From: Candidatus Bipolaricaulis sibiricus
GTDB taxonomy: Bacteria; Bipolaricaulota; Bipolaricaulia; Bipolaricaulales; Bipolaricaulaceae
Direction of reading: 5' to 3'
Assembly (NCBI GenBank): GCA_004102645.1
Contig: CP034928.1
Span: 496,001 to 560,000 of the forward strand
DNA: 64,000 bases
The position numbers were made by a program, and so were the translations under genes. Positions 33,871 through 39,505 of the stretch are shown here, one piece after another; the stretch's first letter is position 1; each line of letters starts with the position of its first letter. The notes beneath the pieces are model-generated. The model did not search any database. It was not told the DNA's origin and saw nothing but the letters and a program-made list of their open reading frames with translations.

Positions 33871-36681
33871 TTATTCTCTGCGTCTGCGTTTCTCAACCAG
33901 AAGCGCCAGCGCGGCGGGAAGGAACGTAACGCTCCACAGCAGCGTGAACCCAAGACCGAGCAGGGCGGAGGTGCCAAGCAGCCGGAGCCCAGGTGTGTGG
34001 GCAGCGAGAAGGGCCCCGAATGAAGCCATCGTTGTGAGCGAGCTCACGGCGATCGGGACAGTGCTCGCGGCGGCCCCACGGACTGCAGCGTCGCCCCCTG
34101 CGGCGCGTTCTTCCTTCACCCGGTGTAGTAGGTGCACGGCGCTGTCCACTCCAATTCCGATCAGAAGGGGCGAGATGACGATGTTGGTGAAATTGAACGG
34201 GATCTCGAGCAGCGTCATCCCGGCCAGCATCCACACGTATCCCATCCCGAGCGGAGCGAGAGCCAGTGCGGCCTCGACCGGTCGCGGGAAGTCGCGCCAC
34301 ACGAGGAGGAAGATGAACACCACCGCGAGAGCGGTGGAGAGGAGGAAGTCCCGTCTCATGTACGACTCGAGCTGGGCCGTGACCTCAGGAAGACCGAACC
34401 GATCGACCTTCACCGTGTCGTCGAGCCAGTCGAGGAACGTCCGCAGGTTGTGACCCTGGTAGATCGACTTCAGCACCCGACCCTCGATCACGAAGTTGCC
34501 GGTCCGAGTGATGAACTGGGCGCGCATCTCCGCTGGGAGCAGGTCGAGGATCTCGGCGATCAGCTCCCGCTCAGAAGGCAGTCTCGCCACCTCTTCCACG
34601 AGTTCCTTCAGTGCTTCCAGATCGACCACCATCGCGGCCAGCCGAACCCGGTCGTCCGCCGCGTCCATCGTCTCCAGTTCGAGCAGAAGTCTAACCAGAT
34701 CGTCAATCCCTTGGGACAAAGCGGCGGCCCGCTCGAACTGCCCCTGCAGGAGGGCGGACAACTCGAGCTGCGCGGCGTCGACGATCAGGTTGTTCAACGC
34801 GGCGAGGGTCGTGTTCCATTGGTCAAGCCACCTTTGGAGCTCTGTCACACCCTCCAGGACCTCCGCTGCCGGCAGGTTCAGGATCGAGACCTCGCCACCG
34901 AGGAGCTCCGTCGGGAGGAGCCTGCGCACGGAGGATACCGAGTGAACGAGCGGGTGGCTGGCCAAGGCCTTCTCCACGGCGGCGATCTCATCTGCGCTCT
35001 CGACGAAGAAGCGAAAGGTGTCGCCGAGCCAAACGTCGCCCGCGAACTCGCGGGCGACCGTCTGGAAGGCGACCTGAGACGGGGTCACCGGGGCCAGCTG
35101 ATCGGAGACAAAGCGGAACTGCACGCGACTGGCTTGGGTCACGATCGCCGCGGTGAGGATGAGCGCCACCGCCACCACGCCTGGCCGGAGGCGCAGGAAG
35201 CGCCTGAACACCGGCTGGAGGGCGGTCGTGGAGGCGATGGGCCTCTGTCGCAGTCTGCCGCCGTTTCGTGCTGTCACGGCGACCAGGGCCGGGGTGAGGA
35301 AAAAGGTCGTGGCGAGCGACATCAGGATCCCGACTCCGGTGATGGCTCCCATCTCCCGCAGCGCGCTCGAGTGGGACAGCAGGAGACAGGTGAACACCAC
35401 AGCCGTGGTTGCCGCAGCGGTGAGGCACGCTCCACCTTTGGTGCGAACGGCTGTGATCAAGGCGGGTTTCGCCTTCAGGCCCTTTGCGCGCTCTTCCACG
35501 TAACGGGACAGGATGTGGACCGAGTAGTCGATGCCCAGCCCGAGGATGAGCGCGGGCAGGAACACGGTCAGCAGGTTGAACCCCCCCACCGCCAGCTTGG
35601 CCCATGCCATCGTGAACAGGGCGGACACCAGCACCGGCAGCACCGCTGCCAGGCACAGCAGCGGGCTGGCGAACGCGCCTAGCACGAGCACGAACACCGC
35701 GATCGAGGACACGATGGTCACCAGACCCATGTCGCGCCGGATCATCTCGTCGGCCTCCACGGTCGTGACGTAGGTTCCCGTGATGCCGGCGGTAACCCCG
35801 AGCTCGTTCAGGTCTACTCGGGACACTGCCTCCCGCACGGTGCGGGTCACGGCCTGGTTGTAAGGCAACGACTCGAACGGGCGACGCGTGGGCCAGATCT
35901 GCAGGACCAACCGAGTACGATCGCGTGACAGAATCAGCTCTCCGGTCGCGAGAGAAGCCTCTGAGGCGATGACCTTCCGAGCCATCGCGGCTGCCTCGGC
36001 CAGCAGGTCCTGCTGGGCGAGGATGCGCTCGAGGAGCCCACGGGCTTCGCGGGCGGTGGTCGTGAGCGCGGTGAGCGTGCTCCGGATCGTGGGCGCGTCT
36101 GCAGTCGGGAGAGCCCCGACAGTGATCAGCATGTCGCCGGGTGGGCGAACGATCGGCGCTGTGGTGAACTCCGCCTGGACTTCACGGCCGATCTGGCGCA
36201 TTCGATCGAGCTCCTCGGCGGAGAGGGTGCGAAAGATGGTCATTGCCGGCGGGACAGCGATGCCTGCTCCGGCTCGGTAGGAGGCCGACACGAGGTCCGA
36301 CGAGCCATCGAGGGGCAGCTCCGCAATCACGCGTTCTGCCGCTGCGACGAGGATTCGTTCGCGCTCGGCTCCGTCGGCAGGGGGAGAACGGAGCGTGAAC
36401 ACGACGGCGATCACGTCCGTGCTGGCCATGTCCTGCTCCACGGCCTGGAACTTCTTCACCAAAGGATCGTCCCGGGGCAACAGGTCGAGGTAAGCGGTTC
36501 GGATCGGGAAATCCCGGATGTACAGGTACGCGACGGCGGTCAGAACGGCGAACAAGGCGATGACCGCAGCCGGCCACCGTGTGGACACACGCCCCACGGC
36601 GGCAAGCAGGCGATCCCGCAGCCCCGCGGGGTCAGCGCGCTTGGGCTCTTTCCCCGGACGGTGTGCGGATTGTGATCGCAT
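33871..36681 (-). CDS. RND-superfamily (MMPL-type) exporter
   Basis: A polytopic membrane protein of about 936 residues with the duplicated RND layout. One helix (about 35-55) is followed by a large extracytoplasmic loop, then five helices (about 380-560) with the GLGIDYSVHILSRYVEE motif of helix 4. A second helix, loop and five helices repeat the plan, ending with LLIGIGVDSAVHLLHRVKEER. The acidic residue within each GxGxDxxxH motif drives proton coupling. The second large loop is helical and Leu/Glu rich. This is the hydrophobe/HpnN-like branch; the substrate is unknown. The start is uncertain: ATG 36681 overlaps nusA by 50 nt. It takes the place where ylxR-infB usually follow nusA. Confidence 0.88.
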   Translation of the reverse strand: MRSQSAHRPGKEPKRADPAGLRDRLLAAVGRVSTRWPAAVIALFAVLTAVAYLYIRDFPIRTAYLDLLPRDDPLVKKFQAVEQDMASTDVIAVVFTLRSPPADGAERERILVAAAERVIAELPLDGSSDLVSASYRAGAGIAVPPAMTIFRTLSAEELDRMRQIGREVQAEFTTAPIVRPPGDMLITVGALPTADAPTIRSTLTALTTTAREARGLLERILAQQDLLAEAAAMARKVIASEASLATGELILSRDRTRLVLQIWPTRRPFESLPYNQAVTRTVREAVSRVDLNELGVTAGITGTYVTTVEADEMIRRDMGLVTIVSSIAVFVLVLGAFASPLLCLAAVLPVLVSALFTMAWAKLAVGGFNLLTVFLPALILGLGIDYSVHILSRYVEERAKGLKAKPALITAVRTKGGACLTAAATTAVVFTCLLLSHSSALREMGAITGVGILMSLATTFFLTPALVAVTARNGGRLRQRPIASTTALQPVFRRFLRLRPGVVAVALILTAAIVTQASRVQFRFVSDQLAPVTPSQVAFQTVAREFAGDVWLGDTFRFFVESADEIAAVEKALASHPLVHSVSSVRRLLPTELLGGEVSILNLPAAEVLEGVTELQRWLDQWNTTLAALNNLIVDAAQLELSALLQGQFERAAALSQGIDDLVRLLLELETMDAADDRVRLAAMVVDLEALKELVEEVARLPSERELIAEILDLLPAEMRAQFITRTGNFVIEGRVLKSIYQGHNLRTFLDWLDDTVKVDRFGLPEVTAQLESYMRRDFLLSTALAVVFIFLLVWRDFPRPVEAALALAPLGMGYVWMLAGMTLLEIPFNFTNIVISPLLIGIGVDSAVHLLHRVKEERAAGGDAAVRGAAASTVPIAVSSLTTMASFGALLAAHTPGLRLLGTSALLGLGFTLLWSVTFLPAALALLVEKRRRRE

Positions 36682-37579
36682 AGCCCGTGAGCTTGGCCGC
36701 CAGCTCCACATTGTGGCCATCGCGGCCGATGGCGAGCGAGATGTCGCTGCCCGGCACGGTGACCGTGGCCGTTCGGGCCGGCTCGTCGAGCTCGAGCTCC
36801 AGCGTGCTGGCGGGAGCGAGGGCACCTCGGATGACCTGGCGCACATCCTCGTTCCAGCGCACGATGTCCACCTTCTCCCCCGACAGCTCTCGGCTGACGG
36901 CCCGAATGCGGCTGCCGCCAGGTCCGATGCAACTTCCCACGGGGTCAATACGCGGGTCCACACCCCGCACGAGCACCTTCGACTTCACCCCAGCCACGCG
37001 CGCCACCTTCACCACCTCGAGCATCCCCTGCTCCAGCTCCGGGACCTCCAGGGCGAGAAGTCGTGCCACGAAGTCGGGATGGGCACGCGAAACGTAGATC
37101 CGAGGATCCCCTTGGGTCCGTTCCACCTGGTAGAGGTAGGTGCGCAGGCGACGGCCTGGCACATAGCGTTCGGTGGGCAGGCGCTCCTCGCTTGGGAGGA
37201 GGGCCTCCACCTCCCCCAGGTTGATCCACACGTCGCGGCCTTCGAAGCGATGCACGAAGCCGTTCAGGATCTCCCCGATGCGGGAGGCGTACATTTCATA
37301 GAGGCCTTCGCGGCGGTGGCGGAGGATCTCACGGCGGAAGAAATCCTCGGCCCGGCGGGATTCGATGCGGCCCAACTCCTTGACGAGATCGAACCGCTTT
37401 CCGTTGACCGACACGTCCCCGGACCGGCGGTCGATGCTCACTGCGGGGGGTTCCTCGCCCCCGAACTTCGTCTGGTAGGCCGCGGCGATGGCCTTCTCCA
37501 TGGCGCTGAACGCCACTTCGCGGTCGATGCCCCGGGCGCGGGCCATCTCCTCGATGGCCTCGAGAAAGTCGATGTTCAT
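36632..37579 (-). CDS. nusA: Transcription termination/antitermination factor NusA (short)
   Basis: A 315-residue RNA-polymerase-binding factor. The N-terminal domain begins MNIDFLEAIEEMARARGI. The S1 domain follows (about 130-200; the GRRLRTYLYQVERT stretch). KH1 has GSCIGPGGSRIRAVSREL and KH2 has LAIGRDGHNVELAAKLTGY. It stops directly after KH2 (RTPSGERAQAR), so there are no C-terminal acidic repeats. ATG 37579 overlaps the rimP stop (ATGA). The rimP-nusA pair is conserved in bacteria, but ylxR and infB do not follow. Confidence 0.96.
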   Translation of the reverse strand: MNIDFLEAIEEMARARGIDREVAFSAMEKAIAAAYQTKFGGEEPPAVSIDRRSGDVSVNGKRFDLVKELGRIESRRAEDFFRREILRHRREGLYEMYASRIGEILNGFVHRFEGRDVWINLGEVEALLPSEERLPTERYVPGRRLRTYLYQVERTQGDPRIYVSRAHPDFVARLLALEVPELEQGMLEVVKVARVAGVKSKVLVRGVDPRIDPVGSCIGPGGSRIRAVSRELSGEKVDIVRWNEDVRQVIRGALAPASTLELELDEPARTATVTVPGSDISLAIGRDGHNVELAAKLTGYAITIRTPSGERAQAR

Positions 37580-38034
37580 CGGTTATCCTGTTCCTGTTCG
37601 TAGATGAGATGGGCTTGCACGACTCGCGCAAACGGGACCTCCAACTCGGTCCCGGCGTGGGTGACCGCGACTGCGTCGGCCTCGACGCGTGCCAGTCGGC
37701 CCCGCAGTATGCCGTCCGGTCTGAGCTTCATCTCGACCAGCTTCCCCACGGCTCGGGCGTAGTGCTCAGGGCGCCACAGGGGACGCTCCAGCCCCGGGGA
37801 CGAGACCTCGAGGAGGTAGGAACCCGGCAACGGGTCAGCCTCATCGAGAAGGATCTCGATGGCCCTACTGGCCCGCGCGCAGTCGTCCACGGTCACCCCG
37901 CCGGGACGATCCACCTGCACCTTCAGCTGGCTGCGCCTCCCCAGGCGCTGGAGCTGCCAGTGGTAGACCTCCACTCCGGCCTGGGCTGCACCTTGGCGCA
38001 CGAGTGCATCGAGCTTTTCCTGAACCCCCTCCAT
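37576..38034 (-). CDS. rimP: Ribosome maturation factor RimP
   Basis: A 152-residue protein that assists 30S subunit assembly. Landmarks: QRLGRRSQLKVQVDRPGGVTVDDC, ARASRAIEILLDEAD, GSYLLEVSSPGLERPLWRP and a C-terminal SH3-like domain ending VVQAHLIYEQEQDNR. ATG 38034 is the start because a consensus TATAAT (38047-38042, minus) ends 7 nt upstream and the protein then has the usual length. This makes rimP a leaderless first gene of the long minus-strand run down to rnc. Confidence 0.95.
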   Translation of the reverse strand: MEGVQEKLDALVRQGAAQAGVEVYHWQLQRLGRRSQLKVQVDRPGGVTVDDCARASRAIEILLDEADPLPGSYLLEVSSPGLERPLWRPEHYARAVGKLVEMKLRPDGILRGRLARVEADAVAVTHAGTELEVPFARVVQAHLIYEQEQDNR

Positions 38035-38041
38035 GTCCGCG

Positions 38042-38049
38042 ATTATACT
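38042..38049. promoter_or_regulatory. Shared bidirectional -10 element (ATTATACT)
   Basis: The 8 bp read TATACT (38044-38049) on the plus strand and TATAAT (38047-38042) on the minus strand. The rluD-like ATG begins 8 nt after the plus-strand box and the rimP ATG 7 nt after the minus-strand box. Neither side has a Shine-Dalgarno sequence. Weak -35 matches exist on both sides (minus-strand TTGTGC with a 16-nt spacer). Confidence 0.7.
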
Positions 38050-38057
38050 TGTCGTCG

Positions 38058-38963
38058 ATGACGGGCACAACGAGCGGAACGCGTAGAGATCGCATCATCG
38101 TGACGGAAGGCGAGGATGGGGAGCGGCTCGATCGACTTCTGGCGCGGCGGTTGGGCGTCTCCCGTTCGCAGGCCCAATCGCTTCTCGTTGACGGCGCGGT
38201 CCGCGTCGAGGGGGGGGCACCTGTTCAGTCCCGACGCATGCGGACCGGGGAGTCGATCGAAGTGGCGTGGAGCGGACCCGGGATCAGCCCGACTCCGTGC
38301 ACGCTGCCGATCCTCTACGAGGACGACGATCTGGTGGTGGTGAACAAGCCCCGTGGTCTTGCCGTTCACCCGGCGGGGCAGAGGCCGGTGGCGACTGTGG
38401 TGTCTGCGCTTCTCTCCCGGGGCCCGCTCGCCCCGGGTGCTCCCGGACGGCCTGGCGTCGTTCACCGCTTGGATGCCGCGACGACGGGCACCCTTGTGGT
38501 GGCGAAGACGCCGGCGGCACTGCGCGGAATGATGGATCAGTTTCGTGATCGTGCGGTGAAGAAGGAGTACCTGGCGGTGGTTCATGGCGCGATCGACGCC
38601 GACGAAGGGACGATTGACGGTCGGTTGGAGCGTGATGCAGCACGGCCCTGGAGAATGCGGGTGGGAGGAACGAAGGACGCCCGCACGGAGTTCTCTGTGG
38701 TCTGCCGCCGGGCGGGGCAGACCTTGCTCTCAGTTCGGCCCCACACCGGACGAACCCATCAGATCCGCGTGCACCTGGCAGCGATCGGTCACCCCGTGGT
38801 AGGGGATCGCCTGTACGGAGGCGGTCAGGAACCGCTTCTTCTCCATGCCTGGCGGATCGGATTCTGCCACCCGACTACGGGAGTCTGGGTGGACTGTGAG
38901 GCGCCACCGCCGCCCGAGTTCGCGCGGTGGCTCGACGCACGAGGTAGTACGTTGCGGCAATGA
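38058..38963 (+). CDS. RluD-family 23S/tRNA pseudouridine synthase
   Basis: A 301-residue pseudouridine synthase. An S4 RNA-binding domain (about 20-70) has RLDRLLARRLGVSRSQAQSLL. The catalytic domain holds EDDDLVVVNKPRGLAVHP and GVVHRLDAATTGTLVVAK, with the catalytic Asp at 139, then KKEYLAVVHG, LLSVRPHTGRTHQIRVHL and HPVVGDRLYG. It is RluA/RluD-like; RluD (23S U1911/1915/1917) is the likeliest role but RluC or YlyB-type activity cannot be excluded. ATG 38058 is 8 nt after TATACT. Its last 89 nt overlap the 3' end of the opposite-strand pgsA-like gene. Confidence 0.93.
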   Translation: MTGTTSGTRRDRIIVTEGEDGERLDRLLARRLGVSRSQAQSLLVDGAVRVEGGAPVQSRRMRTGESIEVAWSGPGISPTPCTLPILYEDDDLVVVNKPRGLAVHPAGQRPVATVVSALLSRGPLAPGAPGRPGVVHRLDAATTGTLVVAKTPAALRGMMDQFRDRAVKKEYLAVVHGAIDADEGTIDGRLERDAARPWRMRVGGTKDARTEFSVVCRRAGQTLLSVRPHTGRTHQIRVHLAAIGHPVVGDRLYGGGQEPLLLHAWRIGFCHPTTGVWVDCEAPPPPEFARWLDARGSTLRQ

Positions 38964-39411
38964 ACTGACCGCCGACGGCAGCCCAGAACACGCCGAGGGC
39001 GCGAGGGGTGAGGAGGAGAAGTCCCGCCGCCAGGGCGGAGAGCACTGCCGCGGCCTTTCCCGGCCACTCGGCTATGAACTCCCGCCGTCGTCCCCAGAGG
39101 ACAAGCGCGCCCAACGCCATCCCCAGCTGGGGAAGGAAGAACAGCCCCCACCCGAGGAGTGGAACCCTCCCCACGGCGGCGAGGGAGGAAATGAGACCGA
39201 GGTAGAATGCCTTGTCCACCACGGGGTCAAGCAGCTGCCCGACCACCGTGACCTGGTGGCTCCTCCGTGCCACCCACCCGTCGAGCACGTCCGTGGCCAG
39301 GGCAACCCCGAACAACGCCAGCGCGGCAGCCCACGCGCCTCCGAGCACAGCGACGACGGTCGGCGCCACGAGCACGCCCCGCAGGACAGTGAGCGCGTTG
39401 GCAAGCGTCAT
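38875..39411 (-). CDS. CDP-alcohol phosphatidyltransferase (PgsA-like)
   Basis: A 178-residue membrane enzyme of phospholipid headgroup synthesis. The complete family motif is present: D44-G45-x2-A48-R49-x8-G58-x3-D62-x3-D66 (LDGWVARRSHQVTVVGQLLDPVVDK). Hydrophobic helices flank it. Similarity to PgsA suggests formation of phosphatidylglycerol-phosphate from CDP-diacylglycerol, but the alcohol acceptor cannot be fixed. ATG 39411 follows a TACCAT box by 7 nt (leaderless). Its stop lies 89 nt inside the opposite rluD-like gene. Confidence 0.88.
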   Translation of the reverse strand: MTLANALTVLRGVLVAPTVVAVLGGAWAAALALFGVALATDVLDGWVARRSHQVTVVGQLLDPVVDKAFYLGLISSLAAVGRVPLLGWGLFFLPQLGMALGALVLWGRRREFIAEWPGKAAAVLSALAAGLLLLTPRALGVFWAAVGGQFIAATYYLVRRATARTRAAVAPHSPPRLP

Positions 39412-39418
39412 CCCGCGA

Positions 39419-39424
39419 ATGGTA
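39419..39424 (-). promoter_or_regulatory. -10 box (TACCAT) for the pgsA-like gene; leaderless
   Basis: TACCAT on the minus strand ends 7 nt before the ATG at 39411; no Shine-Dalgarno sequence. Confidence 0.5.
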
Positions 39425-39505
39425 CCCGGCGATCGCGAGCGGGCCAACCTGGGCAGATCGGGTACCATTACGCGTGGCAACACCACATCACAATGAGGTG
39501 AATGC

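Follow-up and report, generated by a model that had tools for sequence, protein, structure and literature searches.

A near-palindromic -10 element between rimP and rluD in Candidatus Bipolaricaulis sibiricus as a probable bidirectional promoter core

The sequence ATTATACT, which lies between the divergent genes rimP and rluD in Candidatus Bipolaricaulis sibiricus, is very probably one bidirectional promoter core of the sigma70 type, from which rimP-nusA and rluD would both be transcribed with almost no leader. This reading is drawn from sequence comparison: the element is invariant in the family wherever the two genes lie divergently side by side, and one half of it is lost when they part.

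Organization of the locus

Coordinates refer to the window, the whole stretch of 64,000 nucleotides that was analysed, which is part of a single-contig genome of 1.70 Mb. The ribosome maturation factor gene rimP occupies 37576–38034 on the minus strand, with its ATG at 38034, and its product has the RimP_N and RimP C-terminal SH3 domains according to a protein domain search. Most sequences of the family alignment keep this start codon, seen there as CAT. RimP heads rimP-nusA: the nusA-like gene (36632–37579, minus strand) is an ORF located 3' of rimP which overlaps the rimP stop and is presumably co-transcribed with it; its name comes from the ORF sequence and its position beside rimP.

On the plus strand, positions 38058–38963 encode a 23S rRNA pseudouridine synthase of the RluD family (S4 and PseudoU_synth_2 domains, protein domain search), starting with ATG. 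The start at 38058 is favored because nearly all relatives have a start codon at the position +8 to +12, which disfavors the upstream GTG at 38004 and the in-frame GTG at 38100. A RluD search of genome contigs returned distant organisms only. The preliminary description of this locus had named a divergent pair of rimP and a rluD-like gene with a 23-bp gap; the domains of both products confirm the pair, and the window sequence confirms the gap, which spans 38035–38057 and reads GTCCGCGATTATACTTGTCGTCG.

The shared -10 element and the transcription starts

The element itself lies at 38042–38049. As had been described, it reads TATAAT on the minus strand (38042–38047), 7 nt before the ATG of rimP, and TATACT on the plus strand (38044–38049), 8 nt before that of rluD. 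The two hexamers overlap by the palindromic TATA only. This core is perfectly symmetric, but one pair is mismatched, so that ATTATACT is near-palindromic rather than the palindrome it had been called. It occurs once in the window, compared to 0.01 expected from dinucleotide shuffles. In a genome sample of 464 kb (400 kb of stretches plus the 64-kb window), there are only two fully symmetric 8-mers of the form A[TG]TATA[AC]T, both of them between two divergent gene starts.

The spacing from the -10 hexamers places the predicted transcription start of rimP at the A of its ATG (38034, minus strand) and that of rluD at the A of its ATG (38058, plus strand) or at the G at 38057. Each gene therefore has the arrangement of "TA-led" genes, a TANNNT box about 10–12 bp before the start without room for an SD sequence, and these distances of 7 and 8 nt from hexamer to ATG hold throughout the genus. 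Two leaderless starts had been proposed. The spacing in the genus of the window (+7/+8 from the -10 hexamers) is consistent with them, but in the other genera the rluD start lies 10–12 nt after TATACT and the rimP start about 7–12 nt after TATAAT, which implies leaders of 0–5 nt. We infer that strict leaderlessness fits only the genus of the window.

The signature also occurs elsewhere in the genome, which has 11 occurrences of the motif TATAATN{5,10}ATG and none of the reversed control motif. A near-consensus -10 lies 6–8 nt before the candidate start codon of 12 of 418 sampled genes, against 1 for the reversed motif, a count which depends on a crude gene caller and on starts read from the sequence. 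A peak of -10 hexamers 6–8 nt before start codons is the mark of leaderless genes (PMC3160421).

Conservation of the element

The family loci were fetched by RimP and RluD protein searches and 13 genera were surveyed; the phylum consists of one class, and the phylum and class searches covered the same 100 genomes. The preliminary description had proposed the conservation of the spacer in relatives as a check, and indeed the gap is 23–24 bp in all 12 genomes of the genus of the window. The divergent rimP/rluD pair is present across nearly the whole family. ATTATACT is identical in all 34 family loci where rluD lies divergently beside rimP, even though the identity of RimP to the window protein goes down to about 40% among these loci. 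On the RluD protein tree of the family, parsimony gives 0 changes for each column of the element, whereas 105 flanking columns change 7.2 times on average and at least once each; the loci are related, so that such counts are not independent and are inflated by relatedness. The same sequence precedes divergent rimP in 11 further loci, seven in the family f3 and four in f6. All 45 loci with ATTATACT have a T at position 8, a position that belongs to the plus hexamer alone.

The C of TATACT (window position 38048) does not vary among the 45 loci either, even though the plus-strand -10 would be better with an A; this C may keep the rluD direction weak, or may serve as a G at -13 for rimP. In two f6 loci (L171 and L172), ATTATACT is retained before rimP while rluD lies about 870 nt further on, another plus-strand gene having seemingly been inserted.

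A probable -35 element within rluD

The preliminary description held that the gap must contain both promoters. This need not be so, and a second conserved element had been missed: a probable -35 of rimP, TTGTGC, lies at 38065–38070 on the minus strand, inside rluD (codons 3–5) and separated from TATAAT by a 17-bp spacer. Positions 38067–38071 (ACAAC, rluD codons 4–5) are the least-changed run of five columns outside the core. The early threonine codon of rluD is ACA in 30 of the 34 loci, whereas ACA makes up 6.7% of the threonine codons in the genome sample. It is absent from the four other loci, and CAA is also gone in three of these; CAA on the plus strand, which gives rimP the TTG of a sigma70-type -35 at 16–18 bp from the -10, is thus kept in 31 of 34. 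It therefore appears that the -35 of rimP is probably written within the coding sequence of rluD, where it would fix a rare ACA codon.

The conserved ACAA could instead be a translation signal of the leaderless rluD mRNA. Early codons rich in A or CA can favor initiation, which gives this alternative, limited to the -35 component, some plausibility. However, the distance of ACA is fixed to ATTATACT (16–18 nt) and not to the start codon of rluD, which moves from +8 to +12, and a TTG is found at equal spacing (GCAA on the plus strand) in the families f3 and f6, whose rluD starts at other positions. A role in translation rather than as the -35 is therefore rather unlikely.

A scan with the sigma70 consensus finds no 12-mer promoter at the rimP/rluD site, because the -35 is only TTGTGC. 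For rluD, a -35 (TTG..., 16–18 bp) was sought inside rimP, and no conserved hexamer is found at that distance in the family loci. A conserved TTTTC in the rimP codons was considered for this role and rejected: at about 22–23 bp from TATACT, it is too far.

Loci in which the pair is broken or the gap is long

Eight loci with a relocated rluD or a long gap serve as natural controls. The minus TATAAT is kept in all eight, so the rimP -10 persists even where rluD does not use the site, while the plus hexamer at the same place has become TATACC, TATATC or TATAGC, its last T being lost in eight of eight (about three independent events). Two genomes (G012 and G019) have ATTATACC as the rimP promoter, with rluD on a different contig. 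In five genomes of the family f5, the rimP site is ATTATATC or ATTATACC, and in four of the five, those where rluD is in the fetched stretch, a separate TATAAT for rluD follows about 40 bp further on. In one f3 genome (G058), the gap is about 100 bp and the rimP site is ATTATAGC. The relocated rluD of G012 is preceded by TATACT, followed after 7 nt by ATG. In one further genome (G024), the loss of the plus half is accompanied by that of the rimP -10. Upstream of the relocated rluD (L162, G012 C17, about 1985–2020) lies CATCTTTTCCCGTAGCTCT, which looks like a rimP 5' end in reverse complement and is possibly the relic of a rearrangement breakpoint.

Where rluD lies elsewhere or is served by a promoter of its own, the plus half alone disappears, and thus both hexamers are separately under selection, each half of ATTATACT being retained for its own gene. 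These losses bear on a second alternative, in which only rimP uses the site, the plus TATACT is incidental and rluD is served by an unseen promoter inside rimP. Indeed, the rimP side has the better promoter, with a perfect TATAAT and the conserved -35, and rluD has no conserved -35. We nevertheless consider this improbable, since the T at position 8 never varies in the 45 loci and has disappeared from each of the eight where rluD is independent, and since the rluD that has moved away in G012 carries TATACT 7 nt from its start. The bidirectional reading is preferred: one symmetric -10 is readable in both orientations, as is characteristic of bacterial bidirectional promoters, and its halves are conserved and lost separately.

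A second symmetric -10

The second symmetric -10, ATTATAAT, lies at G000 C1:763717-763724 (L131:1718-1725) between the divergent genes lnt and lgt, which encode lipoprotein maturation enzymes. The lnt start is a leaderless-type GTG, 6 nt from the -10, and in the genus g12 the lgt start lies 7–8 nt from TATAAT. Within the family, the symmetry is found in 23 of 24 loci with a short gap, compared to 0 of 6 with a long gap or unlinked genes (Fisher p = 1.2e-5, uncorrected for relatedness).

A third alternative is that ATTATACT is a transcription-factor operator, instead of or besides a -10. Its complete invariance is stricter than is usual for promoters, even at position 7, where the C is kept and A would improve the plus -10. 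On the other hand, the distances from the element to the two start codons and to the TTG -35 are those required by sigma70, it is exactly the plus -7T that goes when rluD leaves, a different pair has ATTATAAT in the same geometry, and in the genome sample -10-like hexamers cluster 6–8 nt upstream of start codons. The operator reading is thus very unlikely. A chance overlap of two AT-rich hexamers within a short gap is extremely unlikely: an AT-rich promoter box easily looks symmetric, TATA being a palindrome, but the window expectation, the restriction of such 8-mers to two divergent gaps in the genome sample and the absence of changes on the family tree already contradict it.

Elsewhere in the window, at about 39415–39475, an inverted repeat with the arms AATGGTACCCG and CGGGTACCATT and with outward TACCAT -10-like boxes sits between a pgsA-like gene (minus strand, probable ATG at 39411) and a plus-strand gene (39506). 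The TACCAT box on the pgsA side is 7 nt from the pgsA-like ATG.

Proposed mechanism and significance

In the proposed mechanism, RNA polymerase would dock on ATTATACT in either orientation, the minus TATAAT driving rimP-nusA and the plus TATACT driving rluD. The rimP direction would also use the TTG... -35 located 16–18 bp upstream, in the first codons of rluD. The rluD direction is probably driven by its -10 and weaker, because no conserved -35 is seen. In the genus of the window, both transcripts would begin at the start codon, or at most 1 base from it, and translation would proceed from leaderless mRNAs; in the sister genera, they would have leaders of about 0–5 nt. A single polymerase would occupy the site at a time. 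It had been proposed that binding in one direction excludes the other: the overlap makes occupancy sterically exclusive, but this exclusion may not matter for output. Indeed, Warman et al. 2026 (PMC12825309) tested five bidirectional promoters of E. coli and found that at the basal level they fire too rarely to compete.

It is fairly probable that the element belongs to a lineage-wide promoter class, in which a fully symmetric -10, with an opposing -35 in the first codons of the partner, durably couples leaderless or near-leaderless housekeeping genes, the symmetry being actively maintained while it is shared and decaying on one strand at parting. Across families, both orientations are seen to be under purifying selection, and one half is naturally lost when the pair breaks up. 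The locus is therefore a ready test case for whether selection favors shared -10 elements as couplers of two mRNAs, in this instance of two ribosome-maturation functions and nusA. It is also one at which a promoter apparently limits the codon choice of the neighboring gene.

Comparison with known systems

A literature search found no paper on promoters of this lineage. That symmetric -10 elements give divergent transcription, as had been stated, is well established: the symmetry lets RNA polymerase bind either way, and divergent starts flank one element (Warman et al. 2021, doi 10.1038/s41564-021-00898-9, as described in PMC10268837 and PMC12825309). The rimP/rluD site likewise has one shared symmetric -10 between divergent genes. 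In the commonest geometry, the starts are 18 bp apart and -7T and -11A are reciprocally paired; other arrangements occur (PMC10268837). The predicted starts of rimP and rluD are about 21–24 bp apart instead, a difference from a geometry that is not obligatory, and their hexamers share TATA only, so that, unlike in that geometry, both can be near-consensus. Also unlike the described bidirectional promoters, the element would serve two nearly leaderless mRNAs of housekeeping genes, and it is invariant across families.

A TANNNT box that precedes the start codon by about 10–12 bp marks a gene as leaderless (Zheng et al. 2011, PMC3160421; in Mycobacterium, PMC3898074). The box spacing is similar here, but one box would serve two genes on opposite strands. 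In M. tuberculosis, the divergent neighbors Rv1129c and prpD/Rv1130 both map as leaderless after start correction; both systems are divergent pairs of the leaderless type, and a single shared -10 is not described in the passage on the M. tuberculosis pair (PMC3898074). Bidirectional promoters and leaderless genes are thus already known, and what is unusual is their combination, its deep conservation and the codon-embedded -35. The arrangement is as compact as the preliminary description had held: a deeply conserved variant of known promoter and leaderless types.
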